A stretch of 64,000 bases of DNA from Phaeodactylibacter xiamenensis. Lineage in GTDB: Bacteria; Bacteroidota; Bacteroidia; Chitinophagales; Saprospiraceae. The DNA lies in NCBI RefSeq assembly GCF_000759025.1, contig NZ_JPOS01000035.1:148741-212740 (forward strand). The letters run 5' to 3'. This document shows positions 38,954-42,362 of the stretch, in pieces. The translations under genes were made by a program, and so were the position numbers. How positions within the stretch are numbered: position 1 is the stretch's first letter; every line of letters begins with the position of its first letter. The notes under the pieces were generated by a model. It saw nothing but the letters and a program-made list of their open reading frames with translations, did no database searches and had not been told where the DNA came from.

Positions 38954-39817
38954 ATGATATCCACTCCTACCCAAGACAAAAACGGCTATAGTGTACTCCT
39001 CCCCGGCAATGTAAAGCTCGAAATGGTAAAGGTGAAAGGCGGCACTTTTATGATGGGTAATGAGGAGTTCGATAGCGCAAAACCGGTACATGAAGTCAGC
39101 CTATCCGATTTTCACATCGGAAAATACCCAGTCACCGTAAGGCAGTATTTGGCATTCGTGAAAGAAACGGATAGCCACCACCCGGAGTGGATGGATGAAG
39201 GCAGTGTGTACAACATCAAGACGGGTAACGAAAATCACTACAAAAAACTGGGTAAAGCCCTGATGCATCCGGATCACCCCATAGTTGGTGTAAGTTGGAA
39301 AGACGCAGTAGCGTTTTGCGAGTGGATGAACAATCAGTGTGAGGGCAAAAAATTTCGCCCGCCCAGCGAAGCGGAATGGGAATATGCCGCGCGCGGAGGC
39401 AGGCACATCCTTATGGATGCAGGTCGCGGAGGAAAAAACAATCAGGGGCTACAATATGCTGGTAGCAACAAACTGAAAGAAGTAGGCTGGTATAGCAAAA
39501 ATAGTAACGGTCAAACGCAACGAGTGGGCCTGAAACAGCCGAATGAACTTGGGCTTTATGATATGAGTGGCAACGTATGGGAGTGGTGCGCAGATTATTG
39601 GCATGAAAACTATGAAGGAGCCCCTGCAGGTGGCAGTGTCTGGATGACAGGAGGGGATAAAGATAGCCGAGTGGTTCGTGGCGGGTCTTGGTCGTCGATG
39701 ATTTCGATTGCCGCCCGTCGAGCCGCTTCGGGAACTATGCGAGTCTCCGAGACTTCAATGTTGGTTTTCGTCTTGCCCGGTACCACCCGCCGGAGCGGTA
39801 GCGGAGGTGGGTACTAA
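38954..39817 (+). CDS. DGR target 1: FGE-sulfatase/C-type-lectin variable protein, frameshifted in VR
   Basis: 287 codons as read. It has the FGE-sulfatase fold: MVKVKGGTFMMGNE, HIGKYPVTVRQY, PIVGVSWKDAVAFCEWMN, RPPSEAEWEYAARGG, LGLYDMSGNVWEWCADYW, then RVVRGGSW (239-246). Beyond W246 the frame reads nonsense. One base is missing relative to the template; restoring it gives ...VDDFDCRPSSRFGNYASLRD-FNVGFRLARYHPPER and a stop at 39799-39801, as in its paralogues. The FGE catalytic Cys pair is absent, so this is a binding scaffold, not a formylglycine-generating enzyme. Function: likely hypervariable ligand recognition. The lost base may be biological or an assembly error. Confidence 0.88.
   Translation: MISTPTQDKNGYSVLLPGNVKLEMVKVKGGTFMMGNEEFDSAKPVHEVSLSDFHIGKYPVTVRQYLAFVKETDSHHPEWMDEGSVYNIKTGNENHYKKLGKALMHPDHPIVGVSWKDAVAFCEWMNNQCEGKKFRPPSEAEWEYAARGGRHILMDAGRGGKNNQGLQYAGSNKLKEVGWYSKNSNGQTQRVGLKQPNELGLYDMSGNVWEWCADYWHENYEGAPAGGSVWMTGGDKDSRVVRGGSWSSMISIAARRAASGTMRVSETSMLVFVLPGTTRRSGSGGGY
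39668..39783 (+). other. Variable repeat VR1 (116 bp)
   Basis: By my manual base-by-base alignment to the template 41294-41410, VR1 has the same first 24 and last ~21 bases. In between it differs at 20 positions, and all 20 are adenines in TR. One further TR adenine (the second base of the first variable codon) is deleted, which shifts the frame. Non-adenine positions are unchanged. This is the signature of adenine-directed mutagenic retrohoming. Confidence 0.93.
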
Positions 39818-39880
39818 CCCTCGGTCACTTTTATTCTTTTACCCTCTTCTTGTTTTAGCGCGCAGCGCTCGAAAATTTTT
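39809..39880. repeat. Post-VR repeat unit 1 with AGCGCGCAGCGCT hairpin
   Basis: This unit (GGTACTAA...TCGGTCACTTTTATTCTTTTACCCT...TTAGCGCGCAGCGCTCGAA) recurs after VR2 at 42291-42362. It contains AGCGC-GCA-GCGCT (39857-39869), a small hairpin downstream of the VR. A hairpin/cruciform at this position is known to promote retrohoming in the Bordetella phage DGR; that role here is inferred. Between VR1 and this unit an extra ~31 bases encode HPPER-stop in the unshifted frame. Confidence 0.7.
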
Positions 39881-40220
39881 ATTTTTCCAGTGATTTAAGC
39901 CATCCACCAGTCATTCGCCCGATTTCATTGAGTCGAGTGGCAAATGCCTCATATTTCCCAGAGTGGTATAAGCCAAGTTCGTAGCACAAACGGAAGTAGT
40001 GGCGGAGAATTTCAAGGCTTACATTTGCTTTTGCAAGTAAAAGGCGTTTCTGAGGAACTTTGGAATAATAGGCTTCAATATACAACTCCAGTAAATCTGA
40101 AAGCTGGCTTTGTATACGGTCTCCCAAAGTGAATTTCTGATTTCTAGGAAATTTGTTCAGGGTTGGAATTGCAAACTTCAGCAGTTCATAGACTTTCTGA
40201 GTGATAATATCCTTTTTCAT
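39879..40220 (-). CDS. avd: Avd-like DGR accessory protein
   Basis: 113 residues from ATG 40220 (MKKDIITQKVYELL), a four-helix bundle. LNKFPRNQKFTLGDRIQSQLSDLLELYIEAYYSK, a long helix LLLAKANVSLEILRHYFRLCYELGL, and EIGRMTGGWLKSLEK match the Avd / 'four helix bundle protein' family. Avd forms a pentamer that binds the RT and template RNA and is needed for mutagenic cDNA synthesis. Here it is transcribed away from the RT with only one base between the two start codons, so each promoter would lie inside the other's gene. Its stop lies at the edge of post-VR repeat 1. Confidence 0.85.
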   Translation of the reverse strand: MKKDIITQKVYELLKFAIPTLNKFPRNQKFTLGDRIQSQLSDLLELYIEAYYSKVPQKRLLLAKANVSLEILRHYFRLCYELGLYHSGKYEAFATRLNEIGRMTGGWLKSLEK

Positions 40221-40221
40221 T

Positions 40222-41328: not shown

Positions 41329-41410
41329 TAACAATTGCCGCCCGTCGAACCGCAACAGGAACAATACGAATAACCGAAACAACAATATTGGTTTTCGTCT
41401 TGCCCGGTAC
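41294..41410 (+). other. Template repeat TR (117 bp)
   Basis: 117 bases with near-identity to both VRs. The variable core reads almost entirely as AAC/AAT codons (I count 14 AAY codons), so adenine mutation can give up to 15 residues per codon without stops at AAY. The constant 24-base start and ~21-base end match both VRs exactly. It overlaps the last 35 bases of the RT gene, stop included, and lies before VP2. Confidence 0.94.
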
Positions 41411-41581
41411 TAGAAATAACTGATTAGCCAGAGTTGCAGCGCCAAAACTGCCGCTGTAAGCGTGCTAGCGTTTAGTACGAGCCTTAGCCCTGTCTTCTTC
41501 ACCGAAGGCGAATACATCGAAACGGAAACGCGGTTAGTACCAAAATGGGGAACGCCGCTTTTCTCACGCTCAAAACATAAA

Positions 41582-42298
41582 ATGACCACCACTTCCACCC
41601 AAAACAAAAGCGACTACGATGTACTCCTCCCTGGAGGTACAAAGATTGAAATGGTAGAGGTAGAGGGCGGTACTTTTATGATGGGCAGTGAGGAACGCGA
41701 AAGAGAAAAACCAATACACGAAGTAAAAGTACCTAATTTTCATATTGGCAAACATCCCGTAACACAAGAACAGTGGGTAGCAGTAATGGGTGATAATCCC
41801 GCCAGATTTAGGGGTAGAGCGCATCCGGTAGATCGAGTACGCTGGCATGATACACAAGCATTCCTAAAAAAGCTCAATCAACTGGTAAATGAGGCATTTC
41901 GCCTGCCTAGCGAAGCGGAATGGGAGTATGCTGCGCGTGGAGGGAAATATAATCAGGGGCTGCAATATGCCGGTAGCAAAAAGCTGAAAGAAGTGGGATG
42001 GTATGACGAGAATAGCAATGGTCAAACTCAGCCGGTCGGGCTGAAACTGCCGAATGAACTAGGCATTTTCGATATGAGCGGTAATGTATGGGAGCGGTGC
42101 GCAGATCACTGGCATGAAAACTATGAAGGTGCTCCCGTGGATGGAAGTGCCTGGATAACAGGAGGAGAAAAACATAGGCGAGTGGTTCGTGGCGGGTCTT
42201 GGGACGACTATGATGGCAGTTGCCGCCCGTCGCTCCGCTACTGGTACCTTACGAATAACCGGAACTTCAATATTGGTTTTCGTCTTGCCCGGTACTAA
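41582..42298 (+). CDS. DGR target 2: FGE-sulfatase/C-type-lectin variable protein
   Basis: 238 residues from ATG 41582; the longer frame to 41462 lacks conservation. Fold segments: MVEVEGGTFMMGSE, HIGKHPVTQEQWVAVMGDNPARF, VDRVRWHDTQAFLKKLN, RLPSEAEWEYAARGG, LGIFDMSGNVWERCADHW, RVVRGGSW (200-207). The VR encodes residues 200-238: D208, D209, Y210, G212, S213, L218, Y220, W221, Y222, L223, F229 are mutated from Asn/Arg in TR. The stop directly follows the VR. It lacks the FGE Cys pair. Likely a diversified binding protein; no signal peptide, so cytoplasmic unless exported by an unusual route. Confidence 0.9.
   Translation: MTTTSTQNKSDYDVLLPGGTKIEMVEVEGGTFMMGSEEREREKPIHEVKVPNFHIGKHPVTQEQWVAVMGDNPARFRGRAHPVDRVRWHDTQAFLKKLNQLVNEAFRLPSEAEWEYAARGGKYNQGLQYAGSKKLKEVGWYDENSNGQTQPVGLKLPNELGIFDMSGNVWERCADHWHENYEGAPVDGSAWITGGEKHRRVVRGGSWDDYDGSCRPSLRYWYLTNNRNFNIGFRLARY
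42179..42295 (+). other. Variable repeat VR2 (117 bp)
   Basis: Same length as TR. By manual alignment, 16 substitutions, all at TR adenines: to G (GAC, GAC, GGC, AGT, CGG codons), to T (TAT, TAC, TGG, TAC), and to C/T (CTC, CTT, TTC). No change at any non-adenine base. The frame is open throughout. Confidence 0.95.
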
Positions 42299-42362
42299 TA
42301 CTCGGTCACTTTTATTCTTTTACCCTTATTGCTTACTCTTAGCGCGCAGCGCTCGAATTTTT
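42291..42362. repeat. Post-VR repeat unit 2 with AGCGCGCAGCGCT hairpin
   Basis: Second copy of the unit at 39809-39880; hairpin at 42341-42353. It lies between VP2 and the LRR-Roc gene. A degenerate third copy (TTAGCGCTACACGCTGAGAA) lies near 49338-49360 after the fifth paralogue, and a weaker one (AGCGTTCGAAATTTTTGAAAA) near 47850 before the fourth. Confidence 0.7.

Follow-up and report, generated by a model that had tools for sequence, protein, structure and literature searches.

A diversity-generating retroelement in Phaeodactylibacter xiamenensis with a template nested in its reverse transcriptase gene, two FGE-fold target genes (one frameshifted as sequenced) and a Roc-COR neighbor

What does the short cassette at positions 38954 to 42362 of a 64,000-nucleotide (nt) stretch of the Phaeodactylibacter xiamenensis genome do, and what are its products for? 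The stretch (assembly GCF_000759025.1, contig NZ_JPOS01000035.1, positions 148,741 to 212,740; hereafter the window) had been described, in an earlier note made from the letters alone, as containing a complete diversity-generating retroelement (DGR) in which one template serves two flanking targets. Our analysis upholds the DGR, its reverse transcriptase (RT), its Avd protein and its template, but not a second working target as sequenced. That the cassette is a DGR with one in-frame target and one target that is frameshifted as sequenced is beyond reasonable doubt. The best explanation of the whole, to which we assign a probability of about 0.88, is a DGR that likely overwrites the ends of two FGE-fold genes, whose products would act as sensors with a neighboring LRR-Roc-COR-CHAT protein as their executor.

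The evidence that carries this reading lies in three copies of one repeat, a template repeat (TR) and two variable repeats (VRs):

41294..41410, plus strand: TR, 117 nt with 35 adenines, overlapping the 3' end of the RT gene
42179..42295, plus strand: VR2, with 16 substitutions at adenine sites of the TR and nothing else changed
39668..39783, plus strand: VR1, with 20 substitutions at adenine sites of the TR, and one base short

Because every base change between TR and VRs sits on a template adenine, and an RT and an Avd gene accompany the repeats, we identify the element as a DGR. All 16 differences between TR and VR2 fall on TR adenines (A>T 8, A>G 6, A>C 2; hypergeometric P = 2e-10), as do all 20 substitutions between TR and VR1 (A>T 10, A>G 9, A>C 1; P = 1e-13); non-adenine substitutions within the 117-nt core number zero in both comparisons. 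The counts in the earlier note were thus exact, and two of the checks that it had suggested, an alignment tallied by template base and a DGR-type finder, agree with it; a script searching for adenine-only repeats recovered the same three copies. One could suppose instead that duplicated FGE genes and a gene fragment had merely diverged without retrohoming, given that targets 1 and 2 are plainly paralogous and nearly identical in their 3' flanks. This is contradicted by the base counts (36 of 36 substitutions on TR adenines) and by the adjoining RT and Avd genes, and we give it practically no credence.

The two enzyme-side genes are as follows:

40222..41328, plus strand: DGR RT, 368 amino acids, motifs IGNLTSQ and YVDD
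39879..40220, minus strand: Avd-type accessory protein (bAvd PF22296, 1.1e-18; phrog_3206 "Avd protein of DGR", 5.4e-25)

The RT matches a PHROG reverse transcriptase family at 6e-122. Its best match among solved structures is 8ub7 (1e-54), which we take to be the BPP-1 DGR RT, with the GsI-IIC RT as runner-up at 7e-17, so that a grouping with group II introns or retrons, named beforehand as the contrary outcome, did not occur. Both motifs reported from the letters alone (YVDD and GNLTSQ) are present, and the DGR class of RTs has been defined by (I/V/L)GxxxSQ (PMC3521204; published work is cited here and below for its available text). The Avd-like protein of the earlier note is likewise supported, by two libraries (Pfam and PHROG). 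The Avd and RT genes are divergent, with start codons 1 bp apart. The same layout is found at three other loci, L059 (Phaeodactylibacter), L091 and L092 (RT identity to the window RT 61, 59 and 55%, respectively), while at the remaining 24 of the 27 non-window loci with both genes the two share a strand. These three relatives differ in the place of the template, the TR lying upstream. Strand arrangements vary elsewhere as well: at L231 (G288) the TR and VR lie on one strand and the RT and Avd genes both on the other, and at L233 (G302 C5) a full DGR RT is accompanied, some 0.6 kb away and on the other strand, by a second, partial RT.

In the window the template is nested in the RT gene, the last RT codons being the first 35 nt of the TR; the RT frame reads GSWRVLEQQ and the target frame RGGSWNN. 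Since the TR starts within the RT gene, the RT transcript would presumably carry it. A TR overlapping an RT gene end is a known layout, that of DiGReF group 3, for which multiple VRs and FGE targets have also been reported (PMC3521204). Unlike in that account, as far as its available text goes, the overlap is visible here as a tail motif, xSW[RG][VLI][LVI], in 98 of 120 RT relatives among the matches listed; SWRVLEQQ itself stands in the tail of 46 of them. These relatives would appear, judging from their protein sequences, to share the overlap. One of the 22 listed RTs that are free of the motif, P0329, continues without a frame break through an entire translated TR, whose asparagines are unmutated.

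The proteins that receive the variable ends are both of the FGE fold:

41582..42298, plus strand: target 2, 238 amino acids, in frame (Pfam FGE-sulfatase, 3.3e-49)
38954..39817, plus strand: target 1, 287 amino acids as read (Pfam FGE-sulfatase, 1.7e-55)
39784..39801, plus strand: native 3' tail of target 1 in its original frame (HPPER, then stop), an ending also found in related targets

Target 2 matches Treponema denticola variable protein 1 (2y3c) in sequence at 9.7e-25, and 2y3c is also the top-ranked structural match of its predicted model. This model, built from 64 sequences, replaced one built from 11 (predicted local distance difference test score, pLDDT, 59); it has a mean pLDDT of 82, with residues 207-214, inside the VR, below 50. 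Profile and predicted structure thus back the FGE-fold assignment made earlier. Unlike the Treponema protein, target 2 is a 238-amino-acid protein beside a Roc-COR-CHAT gene.

Most of the homologous targets compared carry the same signature. Eight of the 120 target homologues listed were compared with the translated TR over 38 codons. P0122, P0123, P0124, P0128 and P0130 differ from it at 14, 14, 13, 9 and 14 residues, all of them reachable by adenine changes alone, whereas changes confined to C, to G or to T reach none of them. The other three, P0125, P0126 and P0129, fit adenine-only change at 11/13, 13/14 and 11/14 residues. Two of the eight, P0122 and P0128, are named Phaeodactylibacter xiamenensis.

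Of the two targets claimed by the earlier note, then, target 2 stands in frame, and target 1, as sequenced, has lost its C-type-lectin end to a frameshift. The base missing from VR1 puts target 1 out of frame from its first variable codon through to the close of its open reading frame (ORF). The best position for the gap is right behind a TGG codon, at TR adenine 41318 or 41319; the alternative placement, loss of one of the adjoining G's, costs one extra adenine change. Past the gap the original frame remains legible, with its CRPS and GFRLARY motifs, its HPPER tail and a stop at 39799. Given that P0122, P0124 and P0128 end alike, in HPPER, we consider the tail native and see no lesion other than the missing base. 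P0130, the counterpart of target 1 (69% identical), keeps its frame to the end. We also considered whether the 31 nt between VR1 and the ORF end might be an insertion that offsets the gap, and rejected this because those bases encode the native HPPER in the original frame; a pattern search found no second copy of the 31-nt stretch in the genome. The TR retains the base that VR1 lacks, and later retrohoming would therefore be expected to restore the VR1 frame.

To place this lesion we surveyed 172 loci, at least one TR/VR pair being found in 148, for a total of 169 pairs (4 from this genome, 32 from named genomes, 34 from the order, 25 from the phylum and 74 viral, the viral set being the best 80 of 589 matches). 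The pair script needs at least 6 adenine changes and one good ungapped stretch, and so misses decayed or heavily gapped VRs. Gaps in multiples of three numbered 0, 3, 2, 2 and 4 in these respective sets. Gaps not divisible by three were flagged in four pairs, namely window VR1, L253, L089 (+2) and L066 (+5). The last was rejected as a broken target, its gap lying in the 3' tail with the conserved core in frame. The target frame is thus broken in 3 of 169 pairs, and in 0 of the 74 viral pairs from the best 80 of 589 matches; no rate can be drawn from three cases. At L253 (the same place as L118) the VR is one base short at the very position of the VR1 gap, directly after a TGG codon and abutting G's, beside an RT match (40% identical) whose frame is open. 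The RT of L089 is fragmentary.

Sequencing or assembly error, with both targets truly in frame, is a live alternative, because both one-base gaps abut G's. At VR1 the gap adjoins a GG run, the loss of one G fits nearly as well, G runs are the kind of place where run-length errors occur, and the counterpart P0130 is in frame. Against this, although it weighs little, the gap falls within the VR and at its first variable codon, which is also where one would expect retrohoming to slip. We take an error to be a serious possibility while leaning away from it. The same position suggests a second explanation, in which retrohoming itself slips by one base at the first variable codon and later erases the slip, so that the DGR switches its target off and on. 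In its favor, the VRs of the window and of L253 are both one base short right after TGG, the L253 RT is open, the lesion falls within the replaced segment, and slippage in multiples of three at AAC repeats has been discussed for BPP-1 (PMC12875486). However, the frame is broken in so few of the pairs surveyed and in none of the viral ones, the third case (L089) lies elsewhere with a fragmentary RT, and two cases at one place may be coincidence or sequencing error. Such a switch strikes us as improbable.

We return to the reading that we prefer, a DGR whose diversified FGE-fold proteins would serve as sensors, and to their proposed executor:

42388..45183, plus strand: LRR-Roc-COR-CHAT protein, 931 amino acids, proposed executor (Pfam Roc, COR-A, COR-B, LRR and CHAT)

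This gene lies directly downstream of target 2, and both COR-A genes of the genome adjoin DGRs (2/2), the other being at the DGR of C25. In 298 genomes of the order Saprospirales, RT matches with E no higher than 1e-40 turned up in 22 genomes and COR-A matches in 49, in 46 of these over the family cut-off. The RT matches made up 34 rows, of which 33 were counted after a partial opposite-strand match about 0.6 kb from another RT was dropped. A COR-A gene over the cut-off lies within 6 kb of 11 of the 33 RT loci, in 9 genomes, where 0.17 would be expected from uniform placement of the 56 COR-A genes over the cut-off in the 22 genomes with an RT match, an expectation that ignores shared descent. 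Among the 30 RT loci outside this genome, 26 yield a TR/VR pair and 9 hold a Roc-COR gene in the fetched stretch, with the CHAT part also aligned in 3 of those 9. In addition, one protein, P0024, is a Roc-COR protein that itself ends in an FGE domain, the sole such fusion among the 120 Roc-COR relatives listed; 11 of its 21 differing residues fit adenine-only change. Together, these observations support a working link between DGR targets and Roc-COR proteins.

What such a link might accomplish is suggested by published conflict systems, in which DGR-diversified FGE-fold domains stand beside NTPase and protease-like genes, and in which one DGR target bears a CHAT domain (PMC10907252, PMC7159879). 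By this analogy, and from the domain content, the Roc-COR partnership may have a defense role. In the available text of those two papers the partners are STAND NTPases and MoxR-vWA proteins, unlike the LRR-Roc-COR-CHAT protein here; a Pfam scan of 12 window ORFs in the range 36420 to 49282 found no MoxR ATPase or vWA gene. In the literature on DGRs with Roco, GTPase, leucine-rich repeat or CHAT terms (article text as available, supplements and subscription journals excluded), the pairing is not described, and Roco stands beside DGR only in reference lists. As a DGR the element belongs to a known kind; what is new here is the partnership with Roc-COR. Tentatively, and at somewhat less than even odds, we propose that retroelement-hypermutated FGE-fold sensors trigger an LRRK2-kind Roc-COR GTPase with a caspase-like CHAT executor, which would form a bacterial immune-receptor system of a GTPase-based conflict-system class recurring across the Saprospirales. 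An ATPase gene at 36420-37853, about 1.1 kb upstream of target 1, matches the PADLOC candidate defense family PDC-S27 (3.9e-195).

The 3' flanks of both targets hold a further candidate element, and the genes beyond the executor bear on the state of the cassette:

39855..39873, plus strand: short inverted repeat AGCGC-GCA-GCGCT, 19 nt, after target 1
42339..42357, plus strand: second, identical copy of the inverted repeat, after target 2
45204..45584, plus strand: small gene after the Roc-COR gene, apparently cut, with a probable remainder at 46839-47042
45708-46781: DDE transposase ORF (Pfam DDE_Tnp_1) that appears to split the small gene
47044-47742, 47877-48545 and 48593-49285, plus strand: three further FGE genes (genes 3-5; Pfam), whose ends do not fit the TR

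A hairpin or cruciform after the VR is required in BPP-1 (PMC3240598). The inverted repeats here may play some such part, a putative role that is unproven, and Rfam gave no match within 38500-42500 up to E 1. Our hairpin survey asked for a 7-bp stem within 80 nt after the VR, a rule below which the 5-bp repeats of the window fall. Cellular hairpins were found after 9 of 94 VRs, 7 of 95 TRs and in 4 of 475 random stretches, exceeding the random stretches but not the TRs; the viral counts, from the best 80 of 589 matches, were 27 of 73, 7 of 74 and 7 of 370. At the viral loci (L119-L198) the hairpins after VRs are GC-rich.

Several points weigh against the reading as a whole. Besides the matter of shared descent, COR genes are absent from the 6 kb around 22 of the 33 RT loci. 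As sequenced, target 1 is out of frame and has no encoded C-type-lectin end. Homologues P0125, P0126 and P0129 hold 2, 1 and 3 residues that adenine changes do not explain. The inverted repeat is matched or bettered in folding by 44 and 40 of 200 shuffles. The small gene looks transposase-interrupted; an uncut counterpart, judged by eye, lies at the C25 locus (L056:9505-10083). FGE genes 3-5, which fit adenine-only change at 12/18, 10/21 and 12/18 residues, show non-adenine changes against the TR at 23/83, 31/83 and 29/83 positions and so are not its current targets, yet two homologues that begin at the N terminus as gene 3 does, P0126 and P0128, fit the TR well or fully. Current activity is unproven, the support for retrohoming at this locus being comparative.

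Such signs invite the view that the cassette is dying, with RT and Avd persisting, retrohoming stopped and the targets decaying. The target 1 frameshift, the transposase ORF and the ill-fitting FGE genes 3-5 all speak for it, as does the rest of the genome, where the RT of one DGR is split (C25) and a template-like repeat is interrupted, with no RT match on its contig (C39). At C25 (L056) the RT is in two frames, with a TR near 6279; three VRs are adenine-biased (17/26, 21/29 and 15/29, other changes being 18/95, 6/101 and 6/101), and a fourth gave no useful alignment. C39 (L055) has a VR-like and a TR-like repeat; the latter (7640-7817), interrupted by a palindromic-looking insert, lies next to a 1673-amino-acid protein that has an FGE end and the VR-like copy. 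The genome's second DGR, C20 (L057, 4023-11774), has RT, Avd and HRDC protein genes on one strand, a TR at 7935-8056 and two VRs, each with 24 adenine changes, of which one has 0 and the other 1 further change. Pfam marks the first target of C20 as a caspase-FGE protein; in the second, a frame break ahead of the VR splits the gene. Long inactivity, however, should have added some non-adenine substitutions between TR and VRs, where we find zero, and the RT and Avd frames are intact. We consider a dying cassette unlikely and presume that the RT-Avd pair still works here.

How, then, does the cassette compare with known systems, and how might it operate? It resembles BPP-1 and related DGRs in its class of RT, its Avd, its adenine-only changes from TR to VR and its C-type-lectin-fold target. 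It differs from BPP-1 in having Avd on the opposite strand, a TR that overlaps the RT 3' end, two targets and only a weak inverted repeat after the VRs. The template nested in the RT gene and the recurring Roc-COR partner are its variant traits. In the mechanism that we propose, the RT, with Avd, likely copies the adenine-rich TR, and the adenine-randomized copies would overwrite the ends of the two FGE-fold genes. The FGE-fold proteins would serve as binding sensors, and the LRR-Roc-COR-CHAT GTPase would execute their signal, the whole forming a diversifying conflict system; VR1 might be brought back into frame by a later round of retrohoming.

DGRs are well known, but the function of most of their cellular targets is not. 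Two separate DGRs share a one-base gap at the first variable codon, which poses a question open to checking, namely whether retrohoming also makes, and can erase, frameshifts in its targets. The repeated occurrence of Roc-COR proteins together with DGR-diversified FGE-fold proteins, for its part, offers a concrete and testable executor for a hypervariable bacterial sensor.

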